Shown: positions 4,617 to 18,407 of the stretch, one piece after another | How positions within the stretch are numbered: the first letter of the stretch is position 1 | Layout of the letters: every line of letters begins with the position of its first letter | Source of the DNA: Hymenobacter sp. YIM 151858-1 | GTDB taxonomy: Bacteria; Bacteroidota; Bacteroidia; Cytophagales; Hymenobacteraceae | DNA length: 64,000 bases | Assembly: GCF_025979705.1 (NCBI RefSeq) | Contig: NZ_CP110136.1 | Span: forward strand, 3,534,001 to 3,598,000 | Reading direction: 5' to 3' | Position numbers and translations under genes: made by a program | The notes under the pieces: generated by a model | Databases searched by the model: none | What the model was told of the DNA's origin: nothing | Seen by the model: only the letters and a program-made list of their open reading frames with translations

Positions 4617-4635
4617 GCTTTTGACTGACACATAG

Positions 4636-4676
4636 CAAAAGGCCCGCTGCTCCGATAGCAGCGGGCCTTTTGTTTT
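4636..4676 (+). terminator. Rho-independent terminator after psd
   Basis: A perfect 15-bp stem (4637-4651 with 4657-4671) around CCGAT, flanked by AAAA on one side and TTTTGTTTT on the other. It can act in both directions. Confidence 0.9.
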
Positions 4677-4691
4677 ACCTAGGGCTTCGTC

Positions 4692-4859: not shown

Positions 4860-4897
4860 CGACCTAGGAAATACCGCCCCCGGGCTTGGCCTGCGCC

Positions 4898-6070
4898 CTA
4901 AGTCACAATGTGCGGCACGAACTCCGAGAGGTTGGTGATGATACCGTTGGCGCGGCGGAAACCTAGGGCGCAGGCCTCGCCGGCCCAGAACACGCCGGCT
5001 TGGTAGCGGCGGCCTTGCGCATCGGCGGGCAGCTCGAGCCAGCGCTGGCGCACTTGGGGCTGCTGGTCGTACTCGCCTGGCTCGGCGTGCTGCACGCGGC
5101 CATCCTGCACCTCCGTCAGGCTTTGTCCTTCGCGGCCGAACAGCGGCTTGCGTACGTAGTGGCCGCCTAGGTCCTGCAACGAAGCTTCGACCAACAGGGG
5201 GTGGTGCGGAAACACTTGCCACAGCCACGCCAGCATGGCTTTGCTCTGGAAAAGCAACGTGTAGGCAGGGTTGGCAATAATCAGGTCGCGGCTTTGCAGC
5301 AGTTGCGTCAGGTCGGCGGTAAGCTCGGGCTCTTCTTCGGCCAGAATCTCCCAGGGCACCAGCTTAAACACAAACGGAAAGCGCTGCCACTCGCCGGGCG
5401 CTGCTTCGGCCCAGGCGCCCCGTTCTTCGCCCATCACCGATACCTGCATGGCATCAACCGGGCACACGTGTACGGAGGCAAAACCGGCCTCGCGGGCGGC
5501 TTCGGCTATTACCTGGCAGTTGGTTTCGTCTTCCTGGCTATCGGGCAAGTACACCAGCAGCAGGTTAGGCTCCAGGTCGGCGTTCAGGCCCAGCCACTCG
5601 CGTAGCTGCAGCTCCAAGCCCTCGAACAGCCCATTGGCTTGCTGCTGATCTTCGGGGCGGCCGGCGGCCATGAGGCTGGCCCATTGGACCACGGCCGTTT
5701 CGGGGATGCTTGTAGCCGTGTCGGCGTTGAACTCTACCAGCTTGATACCGTCGGGAGTAGCGGCAAGGTCGAAGCGGCCGTAGAGGTGCCAATGCCGTTC
5801 GTCGTTCCAGGAGTGCCGCACGGCTTGCCACAGGTTGGTGGGTATGCCCATCAGCTGCAGAAAATCGTCGGGGATGGGGTCGGGCACGGCCTGCACCAAC
5901 ATCTCGTAGAGCGTGTCGGCAGCCTGAAGCAGCTCTTCGGCTTGCGGTTCGCTGAGCTCCAGCGCCTCCGGGGCGAGGTACGTGGCGCAGGCATCCTCAA
6001 CGGCCCAATCCCAACCCAGGCGCCGAATGGCTGGGGTTACATCGCCGGTTAGTGGCAGGAGGCGGATCAT
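4898..6070 (-). CDS. Glutathionylspermidine synthase family ATP-grasp protein (YgiC-like)
   Basis: A 390-residue protein matching the synthetase (C-terminal ATP-grasp) domain of glutathionylspermidine synthase, without the amidase domain, so like E. coli YgiC/YjfC. Visible signatures are EFNADTATSIPE (residues 113-124), the substrate- and Mg-binding segment of the fold, and KPLFGREGQS near residue 305, an ATP-binding lysine segment. Such proteins are presumed ATP-dependent C-N ligases, but family members lacking the amidase domain have no proven substrate; glutathionylspermidine synthesis should not be assumed. It follows, after a 29-base heptad repeat, a lipoprotein resembling YgiB; ygiB and ygiC are adjacent in E. 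coli too. Confidence 0.85.
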   Translation of the reverse strand: MIRLLPLTGDVTPAIRRLGWDWAVEDACATYLAPEALELSEPQAEELLQAADTLYEMLVQAVPDPIPDDFLQLMGIPTNLWQAVRHSWNDERHWHLYGRFDLAATPDGIKLVEFNADTATSIPETAVVQWASLMAAGRPEDQQQANGLFEGLELQLREWLGLNADLEPNLLLVYLPDSQEDETNCQVIAEAAREAGFASVHVCPVDAMQVSVMGEERGAWAEAAPGEWQRFPFVFKLVPWEILAEEEPELTADLTQLLQSRDLIIANPAYTLLFQSKAMLAWLWQVFPHHPLLVEASLQDLGGHYVRKPLFGREGQSLTEVQDGRVQHAEPGEYDQQPQVRQRWLELPADAQGRRYQAGVFWAGEACALGFRRANGIITNLSEFVPHIVT

Positions 6071-6071
6071 G

Positions 6072-6099
6072 CGGTTAATTCATAATTATGAATTAGTAA
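6072..6099. repeat. Heptad array between the YgiB-like and YgiC-like genes
   Basis: The gap reads in sevens as TTAATTC, ATAATTA, TGAATTA, GTAA and is close to an inverted repeat. It fills the space between the stop codon of the lipoprotein gene (6100-6102) and the ATG of the YgiC-like gene (6068-6070). The same AATTCAT-type word is used at 13723-13819. Confidence 0.6.
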
Positions 6100-6789
6100 T
6101 TACCCACCAAAGCCGCGCGAACCACTGCTACGCGTGCCAAAGCCGCTGCTGCGGCCGTAGCTCGGGGCCGAGCTGCGGTACGTGCCGGTGCGGTAGGCGC
6201 TGCGCCGGAACGAGGGGCTTTCCTGAATACCGGCCGTGCGCGAGCTACGGCCCCCGTAGAAGCCACGCCCGTAAAAGCCGCGGCCTTCGTTTTCCCGCTC
6301 GCGGGCAATGTTCTGGCGCCAGCCGTAGTTCTGCTGCATCAGGCCGGGGTTAGCATAAAAGCCCGGGTTGGGCGTTAGGAAGCGGCCCGCCATGTAGCCG
6401 ATGCCGCTCCACATCAGTACATCCATAAGGCCGGTGCCAGCCACGCGGTTTTCGGGGTACTGGCGGGCGTAATCCTGCATTTGCCGCTGCAAGGCCTGGC
6501 CCTGCAGGGTATCCACCTTGCCATCGAAGTGGCGCAGAATGGCGGCTACTTCTTCCTTCCCGGCTGGGCGCTCAGCCGTTATTTTCCATTGGCCGGGCTG
6601 TACCTCCGTCATTTCGGTGATGACGCCCTGGCTAAAGGTTTCGCCGCTCCAGTCGCCGGTGGCTTCGGTTTCGGGGCGGCTATTGTTGGAGGTGCAGGCC
6701 GGCAGCACCGATAGGCCCAGGCTGGTAGCCGCAGCTACCAGCAGCAGGTTGCGGCGCCAGTCGCCGAGCCGGTAAAAGGTCTTGTTCAT
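6100..6789 (-). CDS. YgiB-like lipoprotein, glycine/serine/arginine-rich C terminus
   Basis: A 229-residue predicted lipoprotein: signal peptide with lipobox LPAC, acylated cysteine at residue 32. Residues 45-115 are hydrophilic. A hydrophobic segment (MDVLMWSGIGYMAGRFL, about 123-139) resembles the MAGYMMGRL stretch of E. coli YgiB. The C terminus is rich in Arg, Ser, Gly and Phe (RSSGFGTRSSGSRGFGG), again like the YgiB tail. The downstream YgiC-like gene makes a YgiB (DUF1190-like) assignment more credible, but similarity is only by eye. Role unknown; in E. coli the pair is linked loosely to the envelope. Probably co-transcribed with the ATP-grasp gene. Confidence 0.7.
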   Translation of the reverse strand: MNKTFYRLGDWRRNLLLVAAATSLGLSVLPACTSNNSRPETEATGDWSGETFSQGVITEMTEVQPGQWKITAERPAGKEEVAAILRHFDGKVDTLQGQALQRQMQDYARQYPENRVAGTGLMDVLMWSGIGYMAGRFLTPNPGFYANPGLMQQNYGWRQNIARERENEGRGFYGRGFYGGRSSRTAGIQESPSFRRSAYRTGTYRSSAPSYGRSSGFGTRSSGSRGFGG

Positions 6790-6900
6790 GGCAGTTGGTG
6801 GCTAGAGCAGCCGGGTGGGAGGGGTGGTAATGGGTACGCGAGAAAGCACCCTAGGTGCCTGATGCTTGTTGGAGTTCGGGCACCTAGGGCTTGGTACCAG

Positions 6901-7383
6901 TTAGAACCACTGCGCCATGCGCTGGCACAGCTGTTCGAGGTATTGCTGATCGGTTTCGTCGAAGTCGTTGAGCTGGTCGCTGTCTACGTCGAGCACGGCC
7001 ACTACGCTGCCCCCTTTGATGATGGGCACCACGATTTCCGACTTAGAGAGCGAGCTGCAGGCAATGTGCCCCGGAAACTGCTCGACATCGGGCACCAGCA
7101 AGGTGCGCGCCTGCGCCCACGAGCTGCCGCAAACGCCTTTGCCGCGCCGGATGCGCGTGCAGGCCACGGGGCCTTGAAACGGCCCCAGCACCAATTCGTC
7201 GTTCTTCACCACGTACACGCCCACCCAGAAAAAGCCGAACGTTTCTTTCAGGGCCGCCATGGCATTGGCCAGGTTGGCTATTTGGTCGGGCTCGCCCGTG
7301 GTCAGGGCTTCGATTTGGGGCAGGATGGATTGGTATTGCTCGGCTTTGGAAAGCGTGCGGTCGATAAGGAGGTCTTCGGCCAT
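6901..7383 (-). CDS. msrC: Free methionine-(R)-sulfoxide reductase, GAF domain
   Basis: A 160-residue single GAF-domain protein that reduces free methionine-R-sulfoxide using thioredoxin. The three conserved cysteines fall at residues 75 (VACTRIRRGKG), 85 (GVCGSSW) and 109 (HIACSS); the spacing is the same as Cys84/94/118 of the E. coli enzyme. SEIVVP and VLDVDS, typical of the family, are also present. I start it at the ATG at 7383 (MAEDLLIDR); a longer frame to 7464 would run through the heptad array and the -7 box. A perfect minus-strand -7 box lies at 7441-7448. The gene stands alone, between the YgiB-like gene and ribD. Confidence 0.92.
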   Translation of the reverse strand: MAEDLLIDRTLSKAEQYQSILPQIEALTTGEPDQIANLANAMAALKETFGFFWVGVYVVKNDELVLGPFQGPVACTRIRRGKGVCGSSWAQARTLLVPDVEQFPGHIACSSLSKSEIVVPIIKGGSVVAVLDVDSDQLNDFDETDQQYLEQLCQRMAQWF

Positions 7384-7390
7384 GTTCGTT

Positions 7391-7432
7391 TGGGGTGACA
7401 AGTAACAGGTGACAGGTAACACGTAACACGTC
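7391..7432. repeat. Heptad array GTRACAR in the leader of msrC
   Basis: Reads exactly in sevens: GTGACAA, GTAACAG, GTGACAG, GTAACAC, GTAACAC. It lies between the msrC -7 box and its ATG, so it should be transcribed as the 5' leader. The same words recur 49 kb away at 56692-56726. Confidence 0.75.
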
Positions 7433-7440
7433 AGCCGAAG

Positions 7441-7448
7441 CAAAAGTA
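7441..7448 (-). promoter_or_regulatory. Bacteroidetes -7 box for msrC
   Basis: CAAAAGTA on the plus strand is TACTTTTG on the minus strand, an exact TAnnTTTG match about 58 bases upstream of the chosen start. Confidence 0.5.
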
Positions 7449-7490
7449 ACCCGCGCCGCTCCAACCCGATTCAGCAAACCAAGTTCACCC

Positions 7491-7525
7491 TAACAGCTAA
7501 CAGCTAACAGCTAACAGCTAACAGC
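7491..7525. repeat. Perfect heptamer tandem repeat (TAACAGC)x5 at the ribD stop codon
   Basis: Five consecutive identical TAACAGC units, the only perfect array of the heptad family here. The last base belongs to the minus-strand stop codon of ribD (7525-7527). The perfection suggests recent slippage expansion. Confidence 0.9.
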
Positions 7526-8580
7526 TAGTAAAACACAAACAGCTCGTCGGCACCTAGGGTGCGATGCTCGCGCAAGCCCGTGAGGTTAAGCGAGGGAGCT
7601 ACCACCCCGCCGGCGCCGATACGCACGTGCCGGCTGCGGAGCACGCGTATTTCATCCCACAAACCCGCTTGCAGCAGCAGATTGTGCAAGGCCGGGCCGC
7701 CCTCTACCAGCACCGATTGCACGCGGCGGGCGTTCAGGTCGTCGAGAATGGCGGGCAGCAGATCCTGACTGGGCGGCACCGTCACGAAGCTGAGGTTTTC
7801 GGCATCGTGCCGTTCGCGGTTGGTGTACACTACGGTAGGCTGCGAGCCATCGAGCAGGTGGTGGCCGGCGGGCAAGGAGAGGTTGCGGTCGATAACCAAG
7901 CGTAGTGGGTCGGGGCCAGGCCACTCGCGCACGTTCAGCTGGGGGTTGTCGTTCAGGGCTGTGCGCGTGCCTACCATGATGGCTTGCTCCTCGGCCCGCC
8001 ACCGGTGCACCAGCATGCGCGAGGTAGGGCAGCTGATGGCCACAGGTTGCCCTCCGGGGCCAGCCACAAACCCATCCTTCGATTCGGCCCATTTCAGGAT
8101 CAGGTACGGTCGGTTGCGCTCCTGCACCGTGAAGAAACGACGGTTCAGGCGGCGGCCTTCGGCCTCGAGCAAACCCGTGCGCACCCGAATGCCGGCCTCG
8201 CGCAGCTTGGCAAAGCCCCGGCCGGCTACCAGCGGGTTGGGGTCGGCGTTGCACACCACTACGTCGCGCACGCCGCGGGCAATCAGCAGATCAGCACACG
8301 GAGGCGTTTTGCCGAAATGGGAGCAGGGCTCCAACGTTACGTACACGCGGCACGCGCCTAGGTCGATTTGGGGCGGCACGGCGGCAAGGGCGTTTACCTC
8401 GGCGTGGGGGCCACCGTACTGCCGGTGCCAGCCTTCGCCCACGATGCGCCCGTTGGCATCGGCTACCACGCAGCCCACCATGGGATTGGGGCGGGCCGTA
8501 AACTGCCCCAGCAGGGCTAAGTCGAGGGCCCGGCGCATCAGCAGTTCGTCGTGGGCGGTGAAGTCGGGAGGCGCGGTCAT
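7525..8580 (-). CDS. ribD: Bifunctional riboflavin deaminase-reductase RibD
   Basis: Second and third steps of riboflavin synthesis: deamination of the pyrimidine formed from GTP, then NADPH-dependent reduction of the ribosyl side chain. The 351-residue product has the CMP/dCMP-deaminase domain first, with zinc ligands in PHAEVNAL (His59, Glu61) and PCSHFGKTPPC (Cys86, Cys95), then the reductase domain from about 150 (KWAESKDGFVA, VEGGPALHNLL). I start at the ATG at 8580; the TTG at 8589 is less likely. It is divergent from prmC with 59 bases between them. No other rib gene is in the window. Its stop codon sits inside a heptamer array. Confidence 0.95.
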   Translation of the reverse strand: MTAPPDFTAHDELLMRRALDLALLGQFTARPNPMVGCVVADANGRIVGEGWHRQYGGPHAEVNALAAVPPQIDLGACRVYVTLEPCSHFGKTPPCADLLIARGVRDVVVCNADPNPLVAGRGFAKLREAGIRVRTGLLEAEGRRLNRRFFTVQERNRPYLILKWAESKDGFVAGPGGQPVAISCPTSRMLVHRWRAEEQAIMVGTRTALNDNPQLNVREWPGPDPLRLVIDRNLSLPAGHHLLDGSQPTVVYTNRERHDAENLSFVTVPPSQDLLPAILDDLNARRVQSVLVEGGPALHNLLLQAGLWDEIRVLRSRHVRIGAGGVVAPSLNLTGLREHRTLGADELFVFY

Positions 8581-8603
8581 GAGGGGCAACGAAGCAGGTG
8601 GTG

Positions 8604-8611
8604 TAGCTTTG
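8604..8611 (+). promoter_or_regulatory. Bacteroidetes -7 box for prmC
   Basis: TAGCTTTG, exact TAnnTTTG match 28 bases before the GTG start of prmC, in the divergent ribD-prmC gap. Confidence 0.6.
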
Positions 8612-8639
8612 CCCCGACAAGATACAGCCCTGCCCGAAC

Positions 8640-9500
8640 GTGACCATCCGAGAGCTTACCGACCAGCTTACCCAGGCGCTGCTGCCCTTGTACCCCGCGC
8701 CCGAAGCCAGCAGCATCGCCGGCATTATGGTGGAGCACGTGCTGCAGCTTTCGCCGTTGCAGCGCCGCATGCAGAGCGCCGATGCCGTACCGGCCGCTGC
8801 GCAGGCAAGTGCCCAGGCCGCCCTAGGTCGGTTGCTGCAGCACGAGCCGGTGCAGTACGTACTGGGCGTGGCGCCGTTCTTGGATATGGAGCTGCTCGTC
8901 ACGCCGGCCACGCTCATCCCTAGGTCCGAAACCGAGGAACTAGTGCAGCTGATTGTGCAGGAGCAAGCGGGCAAGCAAGGCCTGCGGATTCTGGATGTGG
9001 GCACCGGCTCAGGCTGCATTCCGATAAGCTTGGCGCGGCAGCTGCCCGCAAGCCACGTATGGGGGCTCGATATATCAGCCGAAGCCCTGACCGTAGCCCG
9101 CCAGAACGGGCAGCACTACGCCCCGCAGGTGCAGTGGCTGCAGGCCGATATTCTGCACACCACTCCGCCAGGTATTGAAGACTACAGCCTGGATGTGCTG
9201 GTAAGCAACCCGCCCTACGTGCGCGAGTCGGAGCAAGCCCTGATGCGCCCCAACGTGCTGCAGTACGAGCCGCATACCGCCCTGTTTGTGCCCGACAACG
9301 ACCCCCTGGTGTTCTACCGCCGCCTCACCCACCTGGGGCAGCAATTGCTGAAGCCCGGCGGGGCTATCTACTTCGAAATCAACGAGGCACTGCCGCACGA
9401 AACCGTGGCCCTGCTCGAGCAGGCCGGCTACATGCAGGCCCGTGCTCTGCCCGACCTCACGGGCCGCGCGCGGATGGTGCGGGCTACGTGGCCCGGCTGA
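8640..9500 (+). CDS. prmC: Peptide chain release factor N(5)-glutamine methyltransferase
   Basis: Methylates the glutamine of the GGQ motif in RF1 and RF2 using S-adenosylmethionine. The 286-residue product shows the N-terminal helical domain, the SAM loop DVGTGSGCI (residues 119-127), and the substrate-binding NPPY at 190-193. The start is a GTG at 8640, placed about 22 bases after the transcription start expected from the -7 box at 8604. Length and motif order are typical. Confidence 0.94.
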   Translation: MTIRELTDQLTQALLPLYPAPEASSIAGIMVEHVLQLSPLQRRMQSADAVPAAAQASAQAALGRLLQHEPVQYVLGVAPFLDMELLVTPATLIPRSETEELVQLIVQEQAGKQGLRILDVGTGSGCIPISLARQLPASHVWGLDISAEALTVARQNGQHYAPQVQWLQADILHTTPPGIEDYSLDVLVSNPPYVRESEQALMRPNVLQYEPHTALFVPDNDPLVFYRRLTHLGQQLLKPGGAIYFEINEALPHETVALLEQAGYMQARALPDLTGRARMVRATWPG

Positions 9501-9541
9501 GGCCACCGCGTCCAAGCCAATGACGTCTAAGTGAAAAGGCC

Positions 9542-9549
9542 TACCTTTG
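9542..9549 (+). promoter_or_regulatory. Bacteroidetes -7 box for the nucleotide-sugar block
   Basis: TACCTTTG, exact TAnnTTTG match 32 bases before the ATG at 9581. It is the only clear promoter motif I find for genes 9581-15808. Confidence 0.55.
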
Positions 9550-9580
9550 CCCGCCGAAAACCACTGCTGCTGGCTGGCCA

Positions 9581-10177
9581 ATGACCCAAACTGCCCCCGA
9601 CTACTTTGCGCACCCCACCGCCGTGCTCGACGATGGTTGCCGCATTGGTGCCGGTACGCGCATTTGGCACTTTTGCCACGTTAGCAGCGGCGCCGAACTG
9701 GGCGAAGGCTGTTCCCTGGGCCAAAACGTGTTTGTAGCCGAAGGCGTACGCCTGGGGCGCAACGTAAAGGTGCAAAACAACGTGAGCTTGTACGCCGGCG
9801 TGGAGTGCCACGACGATGTATTCATCGGCCCATCGGCAGTGTTCACCAACGTGCGCAATCCGCGCGCCGCCGTGCCCCGCCGCCACCAATACCAGGCTAC
9901 GGTGCTGGAGCAGGGCGTAAGCATTGGGGCCAACAGCACCATTGTGTGCGGCGTGCACCTAGGGGCCTACGCTTTCGTAGGCGCCGGCTCCGTGGTTACC
10001 AAAAACGTGTTGCCCTACGCCCTGGTGTACGGCAACCCGGCCCGCCAGCACGGTTGGGTAAGCCAGCATGGCCACCGCCTGCAGTTCGATGCGGCCGGTT
10101 CCGCTGCCTGTCCCGAAAGTGGTTGGCAATACCAACTAACCGGCCAGCGCGTTTCGCGTATGAGCGCCGAGCAATAA
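9581..10177 (+). CDS. WlbB/WbpD-like left-handed beta-helix N-acetyltransferase
   Basis: A 198-residue hexapeptide-repeat acyltransferase. Imperfect hexapeptide units ([LIV]GxxxX) run from about residue 15 to 145 (GCRIGAGTRIW, LGEGCSLGQNVFVAEGVRLG, VSIGANSTIVCGVHLGAYAFVGAGSVV), ending in YALVYGNPARQHGWV, the usual end of sugar N-acetyltransferases of the WlbB/WbpD group. Those enzymes N-acetylate UDP-linked 3-amino uronic acids for O-antigen or capsule. The partner dehydrogenase and aminotransferase (WlbA/WlbE) are not in the window, so the substrate is uncertain. It is first in a co-directional block of nucleotide-sugar genes. Confidence 0.82.
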   Translation: MTQTAPDYFAHPTAVLDDGCRIGAGTRIWHFCHVSSGAELGEGCSLGQNVFVAEGVRLGRNVKVQNNVSLYAGVECHDDVFIGPSAVFTNVRNPRAAVPRRHQYQATVLEQGVSIGANSTIVCGVHLGAYAFVGAGSVVTKNVLPYALVYGNPARQHGWVSQHGHRLQFDAAGSAACPESGWQYQLTGQRVSRMSAEQ

Positions 10178-10213
10178 TCCGAATATCCAAGCTCCCGTTT
10201 CCAAGTTCCTCCG
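10178..10213. repeat. Heptad array between acetyltransferase and wbpO-like gene
   Basis: After the TAA at 10175-10177, bases from about 10188 read in sevens as CCAAGCT, CCCGTTT, CCAAGTT, CCTCCGA, leading almost to the GTG at 10218. Weaker than the other arrays. Confidence 0.4.
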
Positions 10214-10217
10214 ACCC

Positions 10218-11513
10218 GTGTACGAGCAGTTATTGAATAAAGAGGCCAAGCTGGCCGTCATTGGCCTAGGCTACGTAGGCCTGCCTATCGCCCTGGAGTT
10301 TGCCCGCAAAATCAGCGTTATTGGCTTCGATATCAATGCCCAGCGCGTAGAGATGATGCGCAACAACCAAGACCCCAGCGGCGAGCTGGAGGCCGAGGCT
10401 TTTGAGGGCTGTGATATCACGTTCACCGATTCGCTGGACGTGCTGCGCGAAGCCCGCTTCTTCGTGGTGGCCGTGCCTACGCCCATCGACGAGCACGCCA
10501 TGCCCGATCTGAAGCCGCTGATTGGCGCCTCCACCACCGTGGGCAAAGTGCTGAAGCAAGGCGACTACGTGGTGTACGAATCGACCGTGTACCCCGGCTG
10601 CACCGAAGAGGACTGCATCCCGATTCTGGAGCGCGAGTCGGGCCTGAAATTCCCCGCCGATTTTAAAGTAGGCTACTCGCCCGAGCGTATCAACCCCGGC
10701 GACAAAGAGCATACGCTCTCCACCATCGTGAAAGTGGTAGCGGGCTGCGACGCGGAGTCGCTGGAAGAAATTGCCAAAACCTACGAGTTAGTGGTGAAGG
10801 CCGGCGTGCACCGCGCGTCGTCGATTAAGGTGGCCGAGGCCGCCAAAATCATCGAGAACACCCAGCGCGACGTGAACATCGCGTTGATGAACGAGCTGTC
10901 GATGATTTTCGACCGCATGCGCATCAACACCTACGAAGTGCTCGAAGCCGCCGGCACCAAGTGGAACTTCCTGAAGTTCAGCCCCGGCCTGGTGGGCGGC
11001 CACTGCATCGGCGTCGATCCGTACTACCTCACTTACAAAGCCAAAGAGCTCGGCTACGACGCCAAGGTTATCCTGTCGGGCCGCACTACCAACGACGGCA
11101 TGGGAGCTTACATCGCGCGCAAAACCGTGCAGATGATGATTAAGCAAGGCAAGGACGTGGCCAAGTCGAAGGTGCTGGTAATGGGCGCTACCTTCAAGGA
11201 GAACGTGGAGGACATCCGCAACTCCAAGGTGGCCGACGTCATCAACGAGCTGCGCAACTTCTCCGTCAACGTGGATATCGTTGATCCGCACGCCGACTCG
11301 GAAGAGCTGACCCACGAGTACGGTTTCAGCCTGATTCCGGAAAGCCAGATCGGCAACGATTACGACGCCGTGGTGGTGGCCGTAAGCCACAAGCCTTACA
11401 CCGAGCTCGACGAAGAGTACTTCAAGTCGATTACGGCGCCCAAAGCCGTGCTGGTCGACATCAAAGGCCTGTTCCGCGAGAAGATCAACGAGCTGCAGTA
11501 CTGGAGCTTGTAG
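10218..11513 (+). CDS. Nucleotide sugar dehydrogenase (WbpO/TviB-like)
   Basis: A 431-residue UDP-sugar dehydrogenase that oxidises C6 of a UDP-N-acetylhexosamine to the uronic acid with two NAD+. The NAD fold begins at GLGYVGLPIALEF; the active-site cysteine is Cys263 in GGHCIGVDPYYL; the C-terminal UDP-binding domain includes ATFKENVEDIRNSK, typical of the WbpO/TviB/VipA group. Start is GTG at 10218. With the WbpP/TviC-like epimerase at 13822 it would give UDP-GalNAcA or UDP-GlcNAcA, as in Vi antigen and Pseudomonas O6 pathways. Confidence 0.9.
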   Translation: MYEQLLNKEAKLAVIGLGYVGLPIALEFARKISVIGFDINAQRVEMMRNNQDPSGELEAEAFEGCDITFTDSLDVLREARFFVVAVPTPIDEHAMPDLKPLIGASTTVGKVLKQGDYVVYESTVYPGCTEEDCIPILERESGLKFPADFKVGYSPERINPGDKEHTLSTIVKVVAGCDAESLEEIAKTYELVVKAGVHRASSIKVAEAAKIIENTQRDVNIALMNELSMIFDRMRINTYEVLEAAGTKWNFLKFSPGLVGGHCIGVDPYYLTYKAKELGYDAKVILSGRTTNDGMGAYIARKTVQMMIKQGKDVAKSKVLVMGATFKENVEDIRNSKVADVINELRNFSVNVDIVDPHADSEELTHEYGFSLIPESQIGNDYDAVVVAVSHKPYTELDEEYFKSITAPKAVLVDIKGLFREKINELQYWSL

Positions 11514-11600
11514 TTTTTAGGGCTTAGGTGTTAGGCTTAAGGTGCCAGTTATGCGGTGCTCGAAACCTAAAGCCTAAGCCCTAAGTCCTTAAAACCTAGT
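11514..11600. repeat. Heptad array with inverted arms between wbpO-like gene and galE
   Basis: It begins at the base after the TAG stop. Left arm in sevens: TAGGGCT, TAGGTGT, TAGGCTT, AAGGTGC. Right arm in sevens: AACCTAA, AGCCTAA, GCCCTAA, GTCCTTA, AAACCTA. The right arm is the approximate reverse complement of the left, around a spacer of about 25 bases, and ends two to three bases before the galE ATG. Confidence 0.8.
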
Positions 11601-11601
11601 T

Positions 11602-12630
11602 ATGAAAAAGATCCTTGTTACAGGAGGTGCCGGTTACATCGGCTCGCACACGGTGGTGGCGCTGAAGGAGGCTGGTTTTGAGCCCGTCATCGTCGATAAC
11701 TTCTCCAACTCCAAGGAGACGGTGCTGGAGGGCCTGCGCGCTATCCTGGGTGCCGACGTGAAGTGCTACCATACCGATTGCACCGACAAAGCAGCTTTCC
11801 GTGAGGTGTTTGTCGCTGAGCAGGATCTGGCCGGTGTCATTCACTTTGCGGCTTACAAAGCCGTGGGCGAGTCGGTAGAGAAGCCGTTGGCTTACTTCCA
11901 GAACAACGTGGGCTCTTTGCTGGTGCTGCTGGAGCTGATGCAGGAATTCAAGGTGAACAACCTCGTTTTCTCCTCGTCGTGCACCGTGTACGGCGTGCCC
12001 GATCAGCTGCCGGTAACCGAACAAACGCCTACCAAGGCGGCTAGCTCGCCGTATGGCCGCACCAAGCAAATGTGCGAAGACATCCTGCGCGACTTGTCGC
12101 AGGCGCCCGGCAACGAGGTTAAGAGCATTCTGCTGCGCTACTTCAACCCGATTGGCGCGCACCCGTCGGGCAAAATTGGTGAGCTGCCCCTAGGTGTGCC
12201 CAACAACCTGGTGCCCTTTGTAACCCAAACAGCCGCCGGCTGGCGCGACCAACTGACGGTTAACGGCGTGGATTACGAGACCGTCGACGGCTCGTGCGTG
12301 CGCGACTACATTTATGTTGGCGACCTGGCCCGGGCCCACGTAGTGGCCGTGCAACGACAGCTTGGCAACAAAGCCGAGGCCGTGGAAGTGTTCAACGTAG
12401 GCACCGGGCACGGCAACTCGGTGCTGGAGGTGGTAAAAGCCTTCGAGAGCGTAACCGGCCAACCGCTGAAGTACCGCACAGGGCCGCGCCGTGCCGGTGA
12501 TGTGCCCGCTATTTACGCCGATGCCACCAAGGCGGCCGAGGTGCTCGGTTTCCGCACCGAAGTAGGCCTGGAAGAAGCTCTGGCCACTGCCTGGCGCTGG
12601 CAGCAAAACCTAGGCGCCAAGCCCGAATAA
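11602..12630 (+). CDS. galE: UDP-glucose 4-epimerase
   Basis: Interconverts UDP-glucose and UDP-galactose. The 342-residue extended SDR has the NAD motif GGAGYIG (residues 8-14), catalytic Tyr151 and Lys155 in SPYGRTK, and SSSCTVYG. The C-terminal substrate domain includes PIGAHPSGKIGE and RRAGDVPAIYAD, both typical of GalE. Third gene of the nucleotide-sugar block; the gap before it is filled by a heptad array and the gap after it is 27 bases. Confidence 0.94.
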   Translation: MKKILVTGGAGYIGSHTVVALKEAGFEPVIVDNFSNSKETVLEGLRAILGADVKCYHTDCTDKAAFREVFVAEQDLAGVIHFAAYKAVGESVEKPLAYFQNNVGSLLVLLELMQEFKVNNLVFSSSCTVYGVPDQLPVTEQTPTKAASSPYGRTKQMCEDILRDLSQAPGNEVKSILLRYFNPIGAHPSGKIGELPLGVPNNLVPFVTQTAAGWRDQLTVNGVDYETVDGSCVRDYIYVGDLARAHVVAVQRQLGNKAEAVEVFNVGTGHGNSVLEVVKAFESVTGQPLKYRTGPRRAGDVPAIYADATKAAEVLGFRTEVGLEEALATAWRWQQNLGAKPE

Positions 12631-12657
12631 CTCTCAACACGACCTCTTCTCCCGATC

Positions 12658-13713
12658 ATGAAAATTCTTATCACCGGCGGCGCTGGTTTCATTGGCTCGC
12701 ACGTAGTGCGGTTGTTCGTAACGAAGTACCCCGAGTACCAAATCCTGAACCTGGATGCGCTAACCTACGCGGGCAACCTGGAGAACCTGCGCGACATCGA
12801 GGATCGGCCGAACTATCGTTTTATCAAAGGCGACCTGACGGATCAGGCTTTCGTTGATCACCTGTTTGCCACCGAGCAGCCCGATTCGGTAATTCACCTG
12901 GCGGCTGAGTCGCACGTGGACCGCTCGATTACCGACCCGCTGGCTTTCGTGAAAACGAACGTGCTGGGTACGGTACACTTGCTGAATGCCGCCCGCCACT
13001 TGTGGCAGCCCGGCGGCTACGACGGCCACGTGTTTTACCACGTAAGCACCGACGAAGTGTACGGCTCGCTGGAAATGGACGGCGGCATGTTCACCGAGGA
13101 CACGCCTTACGACCCCCGTTCGCCTTACTCGGCCTCCAAGGCGTCGTCCGACCACTTTGTGCGCGCCTGGTACCACACGTACCACATGCCCGTGAAGATC
13201 AGCAACTGCTCGAACAACTACGGCCCCAACCACTTCCCCGAGAAGCTGATTCCGCTGGCGCTGCACCGCATCCAGAAGGGCGAGGCCATTCCGGTGTACG
13301 GCCGCGGCGAAAACGTGCGCGACTGGCTGTTCGTGAAAGACCACGCCACGGCCATCGACGCGGTATTTCACCAAGGCAAGGTGGGCGACACCTACAACAT
13401 CGGTGGCGTGAACGAGTGGAAAAACATTGACCTGATTCACCTGCTCTGCGACGTGATGGACGAGAAACTGGGCAAGGAGCAAGGCACCTCGCGCCAGCTA
13501 ATTAGGTTCGTAACCGACCGCGCCGGCCACGACCTGCGCTACGCCATCGACTCGAGCAAAATCATGAACGAGCTGGGCTGGAAGCCTTCGGTTACCTTTG
13601 AGCAAGGCCTGCGCCAGACGGTAGACTGGTACTTCGAGAATCAGGAATGGTTGGAGCGCGTGACCAGCGGCGCCTACCAGGATTACTACCGCCAGCAATA
13701 CGCTGCGCGCTAA
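12658..13713 (+). CDS. rmlB: dTDP-glucose 4,6-dehydratase
   Basis: Converts dTDP-glucose to dTDP-4-keto-6-deoxyglucose. The 351-residue protein shows GGAGFIG (7-13), the dehydratase triad region STDEVYGSL (Thr131, Asp132, Glu133), and PYSASK with Tyr157 and Lys161. NNYGPNHFPEKLIPL is diagnostic for RmlB. RmlA is encoded 2.2 kb downstream in the same block; RmlC and RmlD are absent, so the final sugar could be L-rhamnose (genes elsewhere) or another 6-deoxyhexose. Confidence 0.95.
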   Translation: MKILITGGAGFIGSHVVRLFVTKYPEYQILNLDALTYAGNLENLRDIEDRPNYRFIKGDLTDQAFVDHLFATEQPDSVIHLAAESHVDRSITDPLAFVKTNVLGTVHLLNAARHLWQPGGYDGHVFYHVSTDEVYGSLEMDGGMFTEDTPYDPRSPYSASKASSDHFVRAWYHTYHMPVKISNCSNNYGPNHFPEKLIPLALHRIQKGEAIPVYGRGENVRDWLFVKDHATAIDAVFHQGKVGDTYNIGGVNEWKNIDLIHLLCDVMDEKLGKEQGTSRQLIRFVTDRAGHDLRYAIDSSKIMNELGWKPSVTFEQGLRQTVDWYFENQEWLERVTSGAYQDYYRQQYAAR

Positions 13714-13722
13714 CGCGCACGG

Positions 13723-13819
13723 CAATTCTGAATTATGAATTCTGAGTTATGAATTGCTCTGCGTTACGGCCCAGTCAAGCCATAATTCAGGATTCATAAT
13801 TCATAATTCAGAATTATTG
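13723..13819. repeat. Heptad array with inverted arms between rmlB and wbpP-like gene
   Basis: Left arm (13723-13756) in sevens: AATTCTG, AATTATG, AATTCTG, AGTTATG, AATTG. Right arm (13780-13819) in sevens: CATAATT, CAGGATT, CATAATT, CATAATT, CAGAATT. The arms are reverse complements of each other around a 23-base GC-rich spacer. The array covers nearly all of the gap from the rmlB stop (13711-13713) to the ATG at 13822. It is far richer in A+T than neighbouring genes. Confidence 0.85.
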
Positions 13820-13821
13820 AA

Positions 13822-14829
13822 ATGTACGAACAGCCTTTTCACGAGCAGCCGCTCGATAACCTGACCTTTCTCGTAACCGGTGGGGCTGGTTTTATTGGCT
13901 CCAACATTGTGGAGTACCTGCTGAAGCACGGCGTAAAGAAGGTGCGCACCTTCGACAATTACTCCAACGGCTTCCGCAAAAACCTGCGCTTGTTTGAAGG
14001 GCACCCGGCTTTGGAAATCCTGGATGGCGACATTCGGGAGCCCGAGGCTTGCCGTGCGGCCTGCGAAGGCGTTGACGTAGTGTTACACCAGGCCGCCCTA
14101 GGTTCGGTACCGCGCTCCATCAACGACCCTATCACCTCGAACGACGTGAACGTGGGCGGCTTTGTGAATATGCTGGTAGCAGCCAAGGACGCCGGCGTGA
14201 AGCGCTTTGTGTACGCGGCTTCCTCGAGCACGTACGGCGACTCGCCGCACCTGCCTAAGATTGAGGACCGCATCGGTAAGCCCCTTTCGCCCTACGCCGT
14301 AACGAAGTACGCCAACGAGCTGTACGCCGACGTGTTCGGCAAAACCTACGGCATGGAGATTATCGGCCTGCGCTACTTCAACATCTTCGGCCCGCGCCAA
14401 GACCCGAACGGTGCCTACGCAGCTGTTATCCCGTTGTTTATCGATGCCGTGCTGAAGGGCAAGGCGCCGCGCATCAACGGCGACGGCGGCCAGACGCGCG
14501 ACTTCACGTTTGTGGAAAACTGCGTGCAGGCGAACATCCGGGCGGCTTTGGTGCAGAACCCCGAAGCTGTGAACCAGGTGTACAACATTGCCGTGGCCGA
14601 CCGCACCTCGCTCAACGACCTCTTCAACATCCTGAAAGAGGAAGCCGGTGTTGATATTACCCCCGAGTACGGCCCCAACCGCGCCGGCGACATCCGCGAC
14701 TCGCTGGCCGACATCAGCAAGGCGCAGCGCCTGCTGGGCTACGATCCGCAGGTGCGCATCCGCGAGGGCTTGAAGCGCACGCTCGATTGGTTCCGAGCCA
14801 ACGAGGCATTTATTCAGGAGCGTTCGTAG
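13822..14829 (+). CDS. NAD-dependent epimerase, WbpP/TviC-like UDP-GlcNAc 4-epimerase
   Basis: A 335-residue extended SDR. NAD motif TGGAGFIGSN (19-28); SSSTYGDSP and SPYAVTK with Tyr158 and Lys162; QAALGSVPRSINDP and ANIRAAL are features of the WbpP/TviC group acting on UDP-N-acetylated hexosamines. It likely works with the WbpO-like dehydrogenase encoded at 10218. GalE at 11602 is a separate enzyme with classic GalE motifs, so this is not a redundant copy. Specificity for acetylated versus non-acetylated sugars cannot be settled by eye. Confidence 0.87.
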   Translation: MYEQPFHEQPLDNLTFLVTGGAGFIGSNIVEYLLKHGVKKVRTFDNYSNGFRKNLRLFEGHPALEILDGDIREPEACRAACEGVDVVLHQAALGSVPRSINDPITSNDVNVGGFVNMLVAAKDAGVKRFVYAASSSTYGDSPHLPKIEDRIGKPLSPYAVTKYANELYADVFGKTYGMEIIGLRYFNIFGPRQDPNGAYAAVIPLFIDAVLKGKAPRINGDGGQTRDFTFVENCVQANIRAALVQNPEAVNQVYNIAVADRTSLNDLFNILKEEAGVDITPEYGPNRAGDIRDSLADISKAQRLLGYDPQVRIREGLKRTLDWFRANEAFIQERS

Positions 14830-14927
14830 GGGCGCGTTGCACGCGCCCGCCTAGGTGGCAACCCGGCAATAAGGACCAAGGAGCCAATAAAGTTGTTCAA
14901 CGAAACGGGCGCGCTGGGCGCGCCCTC
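14828..14927. repeat. GC-rich intergenic element with inverted arms
   Basis: Bases 14828-14849 and the reverse complement of 14906-14927 share the frame GGGGCGCG/GAGGGCGCG followed by CGCGCCCG, with different central five bases. Located between the wbpP-like gene and rmlA. Each arm is itself a small palindrome. The layout (two inverted arms filling an operon gap) matches the heptad arrays, although a clear 7-base period is not visible here. Confidence 0.45.
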
Positions 14928-14935
14928 CTTCTCAG

Positions 14936-15808
14936 ATGAAAGGCATTATCCTCGCCGGCGGTTCCGGCACCCGCTTGCACCCCCTCACGCTGGCCGTGAG
15001 CAAGCAACTCATGCCGGTTTACGACAAGCCGATGATCTACTACCCGCTGTCGGTACTGATGATGGCTGGTATTCGCGATATTCTGATCATCACGACGCCG
15101 CACGACCAGGCGCAGTTTCAGCGCCTGCTGGGCGACGGCCAGAACCTGGGCTGCAATTTCCAGTACGCCGTGCAGGAAGTGCCCAACGGCCTGGCGCAAG
15201 CCTTTGTGATTGGCGCAGATTTCATTGGCGACGATAAAGTGGCCCTTGTGCTCGGCGACAACATCTTCTACGGCGCCGGCATGGAGGAGCTGCTGCAAAG
15301 CAACAACAACCCCGAAGGCGGCGTGGTGTACGCCTACCACGTGCACGACCCCGAGCGCTACGGTGTGGTGGAGTTCGACGAGAACCTGCAGGCCCTGAGC
15401 ATCGAGGAGAAGCCCAAGCAGCCCAAGAGCAACTACGCCGTGCCGGGTTTGTACTTCTACGACAACGAGGTGGTAAGCATTGCCAAGGCGCTGAAGCCCA
15501 GTGCCCGCGGCGAGTACGAAATTACCGACGTGAACCAGGAGTACCTGCGCCGCGGCAAGCTCAAGGTGGGCATCCTGGGGCGGGGTACGGCCTGGCTCGA
15601 TACGGGCACCTTCGAGTCGCTGATGCAAGCCAGCGAGTTTGTGCGCGTAATTGAGCAGCGTCAGGGCCTGAAAGTAGGCTCGATTGAAGAAGTGGCCTAC
15701 CGCCAAGGCTTTATCAATGCCGATCAGCTGCGCAAGATTGCCGAGCCGCTGCGCAAAAGTGGCTACGGCGACTACCTGCTGCACCTGCCGGAGCAACTGG
15801 TATTCTAA
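14936..15808 (+). CDS. rmlA: Glucose-1-phosphate thymidylyltransferase
   Basis: Makes dTDP-glucose from glucose-1-phosphate and dTTP. The 290-residue product is full length, with the nucleotidyltransferase signature [11 protein letters not shown] (8-18), [24 protein letters not shown], and the RmlA-specific [14 protein letters not shown]. It is the last gene of the block and is followed by a hairpin terminator. Confidence 0.95.
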
Positions 15809-15834
15809 GGCATTAACCGCCACTAAGCATAAGC

Positions 15835-15872
15835 AATGCCCGGTGCCGCCTAGGTGCCGGGCATTCTTTTTG
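15835..15872 (+). terminator. Terminator after rmlA
   Basis: Nine-bp perfect stem (15835-15843 with 15857-15865) around a 13-base loop that holds a CCTAGG site, then CTTTTTGG. Confidence 0.75.
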
Positions 15873-15944
15873 GTGCGGCACCTAGGGCCCGCCGAGCTCA
15901 GGCACGTTGCTGCCCGAATGATAATTGATCATGGCCCACGCCAC

Positions 15945-17252
15945 CTAGGGCAGCAGCGCGCCGGCTAGCAAGGAGCCCAACACCAGCACGTAGGACGGAA
16001 TACGGTCCCAGAGCAGCACCAGAAACGTAGCTCCCACCAGCACCGGGTTCAGGGGCAGATCGGGGGCGTAGCGGCCTGGCAGCTGCCAGATAATGCCATC
16101 GGGTAACGGGTGGTAGAGCAGAAACGTGGCCGCCACTACCAGGCCGGCACTCACGGCGTTGATGCCTTCGAGCGAAGCTTTTACTACGCGGTACTGCTTG
16201 AGCTGGTCCCAGAAGCGGATAAGAAAGAATATCAGCAGCGTGCCGGGCATGAAAATGCCGGCTGCCGCCACAAACGCGCCAATCAGCTGCCCGCCAATGC
16301 CGTACTCGCGCATGGCCAGGGCCCCGATGTAGGAGCTGAACGAAAAGTTGGGCCCCGGCAAGGCCTGCGTAAGCCCGTAGCCCGACAGAAACTCGGTGCT
16401 GCTGAGGTAGCCCTTAAACTCGACAAACTCAGCGTAGAGCAGGGGCGCCAGCACCTGGCCGCCGCCAAATACCAGCGAGCCGTTGCGGTAAAAGTTCTCG
16501 AACAAGCGCACCGGCAGCAAGCGGGTGTAATGGCCCAGCAGCGCGGCCACCAGGGCCACCCCAAGCCACAGCACAAAGTTCGACCACTCGATGTTGAGCG
16601 GCTCTTTTACGGCCACCTTCGGGAGTTTGCGGTAGCGGAAGGTGGTAATGAGCCCTCCACCCAGCAGCAGCAAGGGCAACACCCACGGCAGCTGGAAGAA
16701 ATACGCCACCAAAGCCGAAACCACCAGCAGCGCTACGGAGGTTTTGGTATGGATTACCTTCTCGGCAATTTTGTAGGCTGAATACGCTACAAAACCTACC
16801 GCCACAGGCTGCACAAAGCGCACGAGCCGGGCTACCAGCTCCTTGTCGAGGTAGTTTATCGACAGGCCGGCTATGGTCATGATGCACACGGCCGGCAGCA
16901 TCCAGACCAGCAGCGTGAGGTAGGCTAGGTTGGGGCCGCCCAGCCGGAACCCAATGGCCGTAATGGTTTGGGTAGAGGTGGGGCCGGGCAGCACCTGGCA
17001 CAGGGCCATCAGCTCGAGCAGCTCGGCCGAGGTGAGGTAGCGCCGCTTATCCACCAACAGGCGCAGCATCATGGCGGTGTGCGCCTGCGGGCCGCCAAAT
17101 GCCGTGAGGGCCAGCACCGCTACGTCTTTCAGAAAAATAATGCCGCGTACGCGCTTGGCGTGCATGCGCCTGGGTGGAGGCGCCAGCTTAACATCGGCGG
17201 GTTCCGGGAGCTGCACGGGCGAAAGATTGGTGGCAACAGTAAAGAAGCACAA
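15945..17252 (-). CDS. chrA: Chromate transporter, two-domain ChrA
   Basis: A 435-residue CHR-superfamily membrane protein with two homologous halves. First half: AFGGPQAH (residues 51-58) and QVLPGPTSTQ with GFRLGG. Second half: LVFGGGQVLAPLL and QALPGPNFSFSSYIGAL. About ten to twelve hydrophobic segments. Two-domain ChrA proteins drive chromate efflux from the cytoplasm; many homologues have no tested substrate. The start at 17252 is uncertain: the ATG giving MHAKRVRGII at residue 30 is also possible. No chrB-type regulator is adjacent. It converges with rmlA. Confidence 0.9.
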   Translation of the reverse strand: MCFFTVATNLSPVQLPEPADVKLAPPPRRMHAKRVRGIIFLKDVAVLALTAFGGPQAHTAMMLRLLVDKRRYLTSAELLELMALCQVLPGPTSTQTITAIGFRLGGPNLAYLTLLVWMLPAVCIMTIAGLSINYLDKELVARLVRFVQPVAVGFVAYSAYKIAEKVIHTKTSVALLVVSALVAYFFQLPWVLPLLLLGGGLITTFRYRKLPKVAVKEPLNIEWSNFVLWLGVALVAALLGHYTRLLPVRLFENFYRNGSLVFGGGQVLAPLLYAEFVEFKGYLSSTEFLSGYGLTQALPGPNFSFSSYIGALAMREYGIGGQLIGAFVAAAGIFMPGTLLIFFLIRFWDQLKQYRVVKASLEGINAVSAGLVVAATFLLYHPLPDGIIWQLPGRYAPDLPLNPVLVGATFLVLLWDRIPSYVLVLGSLLAGALLP

Positions 17253-17361
17253 TCTGCCCCGAACGGCAAGCAGGCAGACCTAAGCTTTGCCCCGCAGCCC
17301 GGGCGGCAGCCAACGCCCTAGGTGCTTGCCCGGCCCGGCCAGGCCGGGGGGCCGGAAAAGC

Positions 17362-17395
17362 CACGGGCTGCCACTCCGCGGAGTGGCAGCCCGTG
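17362..17395. terminator. 17-bp perfect palindrome, terminator of the oxygenase gene
   Basis: Bases 17362-17378 are the exact reverse complement of 17379-17395. On the minus strand it lies 22 bases after the oxygenase stop and is followed by GGCTTTTCC, so it fits an intrinsic terminator for that gene. Confidence 0.75.
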
Positions 17396-17417
17396 CCAGC
17401 ATGCCTGTCGGCAGCAA

Positions 17418-18407
17418 TTACATCGTCGATTTGCCCTTTTTCAGGCCCAGCTCCACGAGGCGCTCGTCGAGAAACTCGCCGGCCGTGATGTCGGGTTGCT
17501 GTTTGGGGTTGTCGGCCGATACGCAGTTCTCCAGGGCCGCGAGGCTCATTTCGGAGCGCGGGTGCATGAAGAACGGAATCGAGTAGCGCGACGAGTTCAT
17601 TTTCTCGCGGGGCGGGTTTACCACGCGGTGGATGGTGCTCTTGAGTACGCCGTTGGTGAGGCGCTGCAGCATGTCGCCTACGTTCACCACAATCTGGTCG
17701 GGCAGGGCCGTGATGCCAATCCACTTACCGTCGCGGCGCAGCACCTGCAGGCCATCGGCCGAGGCGCCCATCAGCAAGGTAATCAGGTTAATGTCGCCGT
17801 GCTCGGCAGCGCGCACGGCATCGGCCGGTACGCTGTCGGGGTTTTCGATGGGGTAGTAGTGAATGGGGCGCAGGATGGAGTTGCCGTTGCGCACCTTGTC
17901 GTCGAAGTAATTCTCGGGCAGGTTCAGGTACAGCGCAATGGCGCGCAGTACGTCTTTGCCGGCGGCCTCCAGCGTTTTGTAAGTACGCAGGGTGCTTTCC
18001 TTGAAGCGCGATACTTCTTCGGGGAAGATGTTATCGGGATACTCCTTGGCAATGGGGTCGTTGGCGTCGTCAACCTCCTGGCCCACGTGGAAGAACTCCT
18101 TCAGGTCGCCGGTGTTGCGGCCCTTGGCGTGCTCCTTGCCTTTGCCGGTGTAGCCACGCTGGCCCGCCAACTCGGGGTTTTCGTACTTCTGCTTTACCTC
18201 GTCGGGCAGCGAAAAAAACTCTTTCACGTCGGCATACAGCTGGGCCGTTTGCTCGTCGGTGAGGCCGTGGTTTTTCAGCGCTACAAAGCCGATGTTCTGG
18301 TAGGCTTCGCCCAGCTGCTGCACAAATTTGGCTTTGCGCTCGGGGTCGCCCGAGCGGTAATCGGCCAGGTCAAGCGACGGAATTTCGTCCAACAATTTTT
18401 CGCTCAT
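17418..18407 (-). CDS. 2-oxoglutarate/Fe(II)-dependent oxygenase, isopenicillin-N-synthase family
   Basis: A 329-residue double-stranded beta-helix oxygenase. Iron ligands are His203 and Asp205 (EHGDINLITLL) and His260 (STIHRVV); Arg274-x-Ser276 (SRYSIPFF) is the 2-oxoglutarate carboxylate-binding RxS motif. The N-terminal DIOX_N domain is also present (FVALKNHGL). Substrate unknown: in bacteria this family ranges from ethylene-forming enzyme-like proteins to antibiotic hydroxylases. I start at the ATG at 18407 (MSEKLLDEIP); the frame stays open to 18461. No co-directional neighbours are close, so it appears monocistronic. Confidence 0.88.
   Translation of the reverse strand: MSEKLLDEIPSLDLADYRSGDPERKAKFVQQLGEAYQNIGFVALKNHGLTDEQTAQLYADVKEFFSLPDEVKQKYENPELAGQRGYTGKGKEHAKGRNTGDLKEFFHVGQEVDDANDPIAKEYPDNIFPEEVSRFKESTLRTYKTLEAAGKDVLRAIALYLNLPENYFDDKVRNGNSILRPIHYYPIENPDSVPADAVRAAEHGDINLITLLMGASADGLQVLRRDGKWIGITALPDQIVVNVGDMLQRLTNGVLKSTIHRVVNPPREKMNSSRYSIPFFMHPRSEMSLAALENCVSADNPKQQPDITAGEFLDERLVELGLKKGKSTM

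Follow-up and report, generated by a model that had tools for sequence, protein, structure and literature searches.

Seven-base repeat arrays as inverted arms at the edges of intergenic gaps in Hymenobacter

The stretch of DNA analyzed here (the window, 64 kb) comprises bases 3,534,001-3,598,000 of the 4.62-Mb genome of Hymenobacter sp. YIM 151858-1 (labelled G000). Several of its intergenic gaps are occupied by imperfect tandem arrays of seven-base words (heptads), commonly as two inverted arms around a spacer; words are given in IUPAC code (e.g. GTRACAG, AATTMTG), L-numbers denote sampled loci and G-numbers genomes. An earlier note on this DNA had listed ten heptad gaps. For each listed stretch, the best local lag-7 run was compared with 500 dinucleotide shuffles (lowest attainable P = 0.002), and eight of the ten exceeded the shuffles, six of them strongly (7391-7432, 7491-7525, which is perfect, 11514-11600, 13723-13819, 56692-56724 and 57347-57449; all P = 0.002).

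The gap at 7384-7527 holds two different words (fold z = -0.3). Its left arm (7394-7430, found with Tandem Repeats Finder, TRF) consists of GGTGACA/AGTAACA heptads with the inward word GTRACAG, and its right arm (7490-7527) is a perfect (CTAACAG)5.4 array that includes the stop (7525-7527) of the minus-strand open reading frame (ORF) 7525-8589. At 11514, TTAGGGC/TTAGGTG/TTAGGCT heptads (11514-11545) start directly behind the stop of 10218-11513, and inverted CCTAAGC/CCTAAAG heptads (11563-11598) end just upstream of the ATG at 11602; the stem reaches -40.4 kcal/mol (z = -4.8). The 13714-13821 gap (fold z = -6.0) has AATTCTG/AATTATG heptads as its left arm (13724-13755) and inverted CATAATT/CAGAATT heptads as its right arm (13780-13815), both recovered by TRF and the lag scan. 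A single GTAACAG/GTGACAA array (56693-56715) lies between two convergent stops. The last strong gap has a left arm of CAATGAT/CAATTAA/CAATGAG heptads (57345-57382, TRF and lag scan), overlapping the called start end of minus-strand ORF 56722-57348 by 4 nt, and an inverted right arm of ATTGCTC/ATTGTTC heptads (57413-57447) that follows immediately on the stop codon of rpoN (57450-59111, minus strand); its stem reaches -53.9 kcal/mol (z = -8.8).

Two further gaps were weak. The stretch 90-209 reached P = 0.002 with a score of only 8 and an unstable fold (z = -0.1), and consists of GTAGTCA words (about 90-125) paired with inverted CTACC words (about 178-204; whole pair 90-206). The stretch 6072-6099, only 28 nt long, holds a short palindrome, AATTCATAATTATGAATT (6076-6094; P = 0.018). 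The remaining two of the ten did not hold. No significant lag-7 run was found in 10178-10213 (P = 0.13, 500 shuffles), and this 40-nt gap (10178-10217) differs little in the two close relatives, in contrast to many other gaps. It is therefore no repeat under turnover, and it may be a leader or a piece of a reading frame. For 59152-59231 the lag-7 run was likewise not significant (P = 0.08, 500 shuffles), lags 9 and 21 matched better than 7, and the stretch is a GC-rich hairpin (fold z = -8.5). A possible remnant of a CAATGA-type right arm lies at 15917-15932, outside a conserved terminator (15835-15865).

Beyond the window, the genome was sampled in 40 evenly spaced 20-kb stretches, giving 864 kb with the window (about 19% of the genome), of which 76 kb were called intergenic, with 633 gaps of at least 20 nt. 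Because a simple ORF script called the genes, gap edges on the start side are approximate. In the gaps, the numbers of segments for lags 4 to 13 were 0, 0, 0, 45, 3, 5, 2, 0, 4 and 0, a clear excess at lag 7 (45 vs. 0-5 at lags 4-6 and 8-13) in the autocorrelation check that the earlier note had proposed, made here on a sample of the genome. Lags 14, 15 and 16 gave 40, 1 and 4, the 40 at lag 14 because period-7 repeats must also repeat at 14. One shuffle per stretch of the first 464 kb gave 0-1 intergenic segments per lag. In the coding DNA of the sample the expected multiples of three dominated, and lag 7 gave 20 segments vs. 5-13 at lags 4, 5, 8, 10, 11 and 13, part of which will be arrays within wrongly called ORFs. 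Of the 633 gaps, 34 bore an array, which for a representative sample corresponds to about 180 in the whole genome; two strictly scored pilot scans recovered only the strongest arrays. With head-to-tail 7-bp units, period 7 standing above other periods and an intergenic position, the arrays belong to the class of heptameric intergenic tandem repeats.

Array position was strongly tied to genes. Among 44 arrays, 38 lay within 12 nt of a gene end (random placement expects 16.6), and the mean distance to the gene end was smaller than in all 1000 random placements, so that the family proposed in the earlier note stood on both lag-7 excess and non-random anchoring. Its wording, that arrays begin at the base following a stop codon and continue to the next start or stop codon, was incomplete: arms also edge starts, with a median of 4 nt from the gene on the stop side (n = 22) and 7.5 nt on the start side (n = 22), and seven overlap the called gene (five stop-side, two start-side). 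The inverted arms around a spacer that it had described were found for 29 of 42 testable arrays, with the inverted score above the direct score in 34 arrays and below it in 6. Eight genomes of the genus were used, the own genome included; in congeners, an inverted partner was present for 16 of 20 arrays (inverted vs. direct 17 to 1), or for 17 of 25 (21 to 2) when seven stretches (L064-L070) chosen around GTRACAGG matches are included. Those seven entered the word-sharing, inverted-partner and G-U counts given here, and the first two counts were repeated without them. All 13 AATTMTG loci with both arms had the same order by our own count, six further loci having one strand only. The words of both edges read inward and in that direction are poor in C (9%). 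Read inward, 25 of the 44 arrays stop all three frames, above the maximum of 23 (mean 16.4) for 200 sets of letter-permuted heptads; read outward, 14 do. The earlier note had suggested that the words carry stops in several frames. Selection for stop codons as the sole cause was rejected, the share being similar on the stop side (14/22) and the start side (11/22; P = 0.54). The spacer between arms is other, often GC-rich sequence and sometimes a complete terminator (L001, L020, L249); some gaps hold a single arm or two unlike words.

The main word roots of the own genome, judged by eye, were AATTMTG, AATTAAA/AATTAAG, GTRACAG, CTGTTAG, CAATGAW, GAAGGAA/GAATGAG, TTAGGGY, GTAYTGR and GTAGNNN. In the own genome AATTMTG arrays gave 30 forward and 35 reverse matches (reversed control 0) and GTRACAGG 30 (control 0). 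Words are common to several loci and to species of the genus: 5 of 25 consensus words recurred in congener stretches other than the seven picked ones (permuted mean 1.0, P < 0.0005), and 7 of 25 in all 40 congener stretches, picked ones included (permuted 1.26), although one shared word, CCGCCGG, found here in a 16-nt GC-rich run (L187), may be trivial. Fourfold AATT arrays on one strand numbered 62 here and 44, 19, 10, 4, 2, 1 and 0 in the other seven genus genomes, with reversed controls of 3 here, 6 in G004, 1 in G001 and 0 elsewhere. The intergenic lag-7 scan gave 17 segments for G005 (320 kb), 3 for G007 (240 kb) and 1 for five further species (100 kb). Sampling of 16 family and 4 order genomes (20 stretches, 385 kb) gave 4 such segments, not above other lags (0-7), and GTRACAGG was present in 5 of 38 genomes, own included, all within the genus. 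A scan of public collections for three GTRACAG units, run without a shuffled control, returned at least 115 stretches; among the matches listed, 67 were cyanobacterial by title, one was from Hymenobacter piscis (RpoN 76% identical to that of the window), and others were from Acidobacteria, Planctomycetes, Armatimonadetes, Proteobacteria and more. Inverted GTGACAG arms were visible in two of 15 loci inspected, L110 (Acidobacteria) and L112 (H. piscis). A lexicon spanning phyla was dropped: apart from GTRACAG, set aside as the seed, 3 of 25 exact words were shared with cyanobacteria (permuted 2.1, P = 0.35), and sharing within one substitution gave P = 0.03 for the own genome, 0.25 for congeners, 0.05 for both and 0.08 without GTRACAG neighbours.

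The same gaps were then compared in two close relatives, G005 and G007, which are syntenic with most of the window. Identity over 36 genes was 89.7% (own-G005), 89.6% (own-G007) and 87.7% (G005-G007), and the G005+G007 grouping had the fewest shared sites (116 vs. 137 and 153). In sampled gaps, own and G005 arrays co-occurred (3 shared, 6 and 3 single, 101 neither; P = 0.006), as did own and G007 arrays (3 shared, 5 and 0 single, 77 neither; P = 0.0006), one of these three gaps (L202:15315) being a conserved stretch and probably no array; for G005 and G007 the counts were 1 shared, 4 and 2 single and 70 neither (P = 0.18). In addition, 19 loci were chosen for their own AATTMTG or GTRACAGG arrays, 17 of which were located in G005 and 17 in G007 (one unreadable), and sameness of word was judged by eye. 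In G005 the word was the same at six of 17 (L001, L006, L016, L020, L023, L253), another at eight (L008, L025, L030, L241, L250, L256, L257, L261; L030 with period 8), and the array was absent or decayed at three (L239, L249, L258). By lag-7 scan, 10 of the 17 chosen gaps carried an array in G005 vs. 6 of 113 background gaps (P = 4e-7), and different-word arrays alone were found in 6 of 17 (P = 0.001 against the same background). The same gaps are thus occupied in different species above expectation, often by another word.

The direction of change is inferred at two gaps. At L250 and L261 one word is common to G005 and G007 and another stands here, and, as shared sites are fewest for G005 with G007, a change in the own lineage is likelier. 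The clearest arm-only change is L025, whose right arm has one CCTGTCACC in G007, six units here and CTAACAGC words in G005, with the promoter side conserved in all three species; one in-situ expansion is likely. L001 is the reverse, with arms the same in two species and unlike spacers, so that arms and spacers can change separately. In the window, G005 has GGTGACAGGTAATACGTGACAAGTAACACG at the place of the 7394-7430 arm, and neither relative has an array at the position of 7490-7527. The 13714-13821 gap carries AATTCTG words here and in G007 and CAATGAA words in both arms of G005. The position of 57413-57447 holds, by eye, GGAAGAATGA words in G005 and an ordinary GC hairpin in G007, and the 11514 gap a period-8 palindrome in G005 and an ordinary GC hairpin in G007. 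The G005 counterpart of the 6071 gap (112 nt) has AAGGAAG-type inverted arms. CAATGA-type arms flank the same terminator of the 15809 gap in G005 and G007 (by eye); at this gap and at L249 terminators are conserved inside changing arms. Period-8 inverted arms were seen in place of period 7 in the L030 and 11514 gaps of G005 and in the L023 gap of G007, the last with the same root, GGTGA. The G005 counterpart of 42859-42876 measures 421 nt vs. 17-18 nt elsewhere, begins with GAAGGAATGA-type heptads and seems to hold an extra small reading frame.

The heptad fold-backs are real. The reading we prefer, with confidence that is about even, is that most arrays are paired arms of intergenic fold-back repeats at DNA level, with seven-base growth and exchange of words. 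Each arm would repeat a single seven-base word imperfectly in tandem; the two arms, usually mirror images, would edge the gap as a pair and touch the neighbouring genes. Words may grow and homogenise by seven-base steps, through slippage or unequal exchange, and the mirror copies may come from hairpin-templated synthesis or from acquisition as a pair. Arms would lie flush with genes because selection removes anything reaching further in, and stop enrichment together with the five stop-side overlaps suggests that words stopping the inward frames are tolerated at, and able to supply, the stop of a gene. No terminator or mRNA-stem function would be required. The 7-base slippage that the earlier note had offered is compatible with this, L025 with one word in G007 and six here being the one locus in its favour. 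Intergenic DNA seems to be rewritten at a higher rate than the genes next to it.

A number of observations weigh against this reading. Of 16 chosen gaps in G007, only 1 passed the lag-7 scan and 3 passed at lag 7 or 8, so most of the chosen arrays are simply missing there. Unit order does not trace a spread of words between loci: variants kept their order in 25 pairs of at least 14 nt, where the permuted null gives 27. Copying of long arm blocks in trans was accordingly not supported, the one 32-nt identity between two loci being reached by the null at times. Similarity between arms was only marginally higher within a locus than between loci (P = 0.086, 11 loci), which leaves within-locus copying of unit order marginal, and it too was set aside. 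Strict seven-base steps between orthologues found no clear support: internal indels at L025 are 40 and 30 nt, and among the few alignable pairs the one-unit and six-unit forms of L025 are separated by the 30-nt indel, while at L016 the arm edge has indels of 8 and 4. A few gaps of the relatives have period 8. Spacers were alike (P < 0.01) in only 2 of 10 comparisons with another word or no array (L261 own-G007, P = 0.003; L023 own-G007, P = 0.007), and a second set had 0 of 8 below 0.05, the nearest being 13714 own-G005 (P = 0.058). Even with the same word, spacers were unlike at 13714 own-G007 (P = 0.25), at L046:957 own-G005 (P = 0.87) and at L001 (P = 0.56), where the arms are kept. As spacers are mostly unlike, many of the word changes may be whole-gap replacements.

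Array gaps also fold well, with a mean z of -4.6 compared with about -1.7 for other same-strand gaps and -4.1 for other convergent gaps. This is as predicted by a rival explanation, which we regard as unlikely, that the arms are functional RNA stems, long intercistronic hairpins that end transcription or protect or process mRNA, with words free to vary while pairing holds. The folds at 11514, 13714 and 57345 and the ordinary GC hairpins of G007, without heptads, at 11514 and 57349 favour it, and divergent gaps are used less, though not significantly (3/34 vs. 132/633, P = 0.08). Mirror arms must fold, however, whatever the reason for their symmetry. Array gaps as a class do not fit the pattern of intrinsic terminators, a GC-rich stem followed by a U-tract: TTTTT occurred anywhere in the read strand in only 10 of 34, and a terminator scan of window positions 1-20000, which called 15835-15865, made no call inside the array gaps at 11514 and 13714. 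No Rfam family was found in the window at the gathering threshold. Some arms lie outside an existing terminator (L001, L020 and L249, and the 15809 gap in G005 and G007), and some gaps are one-armed or hold two different words, as at 7384-7527. A mismatch test made use of strand asymmetry: where the read strand has G-U, the opposite strand has A-C. In the 32 of 54 same-strand array gaps whose arms aligned with a score of at least 15, stems comprised 891 Watson-Crick pairs, 43 G-U, 33 A-C and 82 other mismatches, so that G-U exceeded A-C without significance (P = 0.30), and selection on the arms for RNA pairing was not supported. The proposal of the earlier note that arrays act as terminators or mRNA 3' structures thus gained little or nothing beyond the good folding. 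The lack of a significant G-U excess and the scarcity of U-tracts place the symmetry at the DNA level, a conclusion held with modest confidence.

A shade less probable is that the arrays are non-autonomous elements resembling REPINs or miniature inverted-repeat transposable elements (MITEs), arm-spacer-arm units moved in trans by a transposase, one family per word. Such elements would fit the spaced inverted doublets, the fixed polarity, the occurrence of one word family at 19 loci and the lineage-specific presence, and some gaps are far shorter without arms (6071 gap, 112 nt in G005 vs. 29 and 27; L241, 191 nt vs. 19 in G007). Against this, the 57349 gap is of similar length with and without arms (101, 85 and 94 nt), and loci have different spacers (by eye) and do not keep the order of units. 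Genes of the Y1_Tnp family number 4 here and 0-4 in congeners. The two genomes without them are poor in AATT arrays (G006 0, G002 2), but G003 has two and a single AATT array and G004 has one and 44 arrays. Of 13 Y1_Tnp loci in six genomes, 12 had inverted repeats in the surrounding 4.5 kb (e.g. GTAGCGCGGACTTTGTAGTCCGCG) and L234 none; by eye, none of the repeats at those 12 is a heptad array, and most are GC-rich palindromes. The four own genes of the REP-associated tyrosine transposase (RAYT) type (G000:C1 234539, 1321011, 2962026 and 415896; L226-L229) each lie beside a different inverted repeat. As far as tested, an origin of the heptads from RAYTs is unsupported, the repeats beside such genes being different. 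A reverse-transcriptase or telomerase-like writer was also considered and rejected, since RVT_1 (PF00078), the one reverse-transcriptase family searched, had 0 places in the own genome; it occurred in 2 of the 8 genus genomes.

Slightly less probable again is that these are plain neutral heptamer simple sequence repeats (SSRs) from polymerase slippage, with inverted arms arising by chance or as a by-product. Among long simple repeats, heptamers are reported to be the most frequent kind in most of the genomes examined (Mrazek 2007, as cited in excerpts of PMC4679880 and PMC4692102), and L025 supplies one likely in-situ expansion; the 34 to 6 preference for inverted over direct partners, the flushness with genes and the fixed polarity would not be expected of slippage alone, and the same words recur at many loci. 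Least probable, and improbable in itself, is a dedicated DNA-editing activity with a seven-base ruler that rewrites gap edges inward from gene ends, mirrored on both sides, takes its words from a small lexicon of the whole genome and sometimes swaps the word, with period 8 as a second ruler setting.

Other repeats were seen in the same DNA. By eye, the convergent genes at 21073-21308 are separated by inverted arms TGTCATTGCGAGCAAAGCGAAGCAATC around a terminator-like hairpin; these are not heptads and have the same architecture. Other dispersed palindromes (ATGTCGAGC...GAGACATC, TTCCGAGC...) can sit inside the spacer of heptad arms, as in the G005 gap orthologous to 14830-14935, the G001 and G004 gaps at 59112-59250, the L001 gap of G005, the L008 gap of G007 and L112. 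CCTAGG is frequent, 1033 of the 1607 CTAG in the own 864 kb lying within it, and occurs inside ORFs and terminator loops; it resembles the HIP1 octamer of cyanobacteria.

Heptamer repeats of cyanobacteria are known as short tandemly repeated repetitive (STRR) sequences, and the earlier note had supposed an equivalent system here. For comparison, 47 of the 67 listed cyanobacterial loci (up to L146, without L096) were used, with 200 nt around each seed masked. Their non-ORF DNA gave 128 lag-7 segments vs. 0-19 at other lags from 4 to 13, so a strong period-7 excess is found in both groups, and the word GTRACAG is common to them. The architecture differs: cyanobacterial arrays had no inverted preference (inverted partner 31/118, direct 30/118; here 30/41 and 16/41) and lay further from ORF ends (median 27.5 nt), and the exact word overlap was not significant.

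The remaining systems are compared as described in excerpts of the papers cited. Heptamers in Xanthomonas (GGGAATC) form heterogeneous intergenic arrays that vary in length and sequence between species, with site pairs in convergent orientation, one per strand (70 cases in Xcc, 75 in Xac), nearer the 5' neighbouring ORF (mean 28 nt) and rare in divergent gaps (PMC4692102, Rehm et al. 2015, which also cites a heptamer-repeat report from Calothrix). The arrays here share convergent inverted heptamer pairs close to an ORF end; they differ in having arms at both gap edges, a word that is itself replaced in orthologous gaps, and several AT-leaning words in place of one G-rich word with quadruplex potential. 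GGGAATC was absent among 25 own and 20 congener consensus words of the sampled arrays. In Beggiatoaceae, TAACTGA heptamer arrays lie between and adjoin genes, close relatives can be without them in the same gap, and the repeats also occur in cyanobacteria and five Bacteroidetes (PMC4679880, MacGregor 2015); inverted pairs and many words set the present arrays apart. REPINs with RAYT transposases are inverted doublets with a spacer, dispersed between genes (PMC3116915, Bertels and Rainey 2011), and the doublet around a spacer is found here as well, although the RAYT-type genes here are flanked by other palindromes and no conserved spacer separates the tandem arrays that form the heptad arms. 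Heptamer-derived satellites occur in some bacteria, e.g. Chloroflexus (PMC6749651).

The seven-base preference of long bacterial SSRs has so far only been guessed at, through the idea of a 7-nt polymerase contact (Mrazek 2007, as cited in excerpts of PMC4679880 and PMC4692102). This genus combines that preference with mirror symmetry, fixed direction, anchoring at gene edges and word replacement between flanking genes that are about 90% identical, and aligned before-and-after gaps could separate slippage, template switching and transposition. The open-licence literature searched held no report of such repeats in Hymenobacter or its relatives, nor of fold-backs with many words, arms at both edges and switching of words, and these are best read as a variant of the known heptamer repeats.
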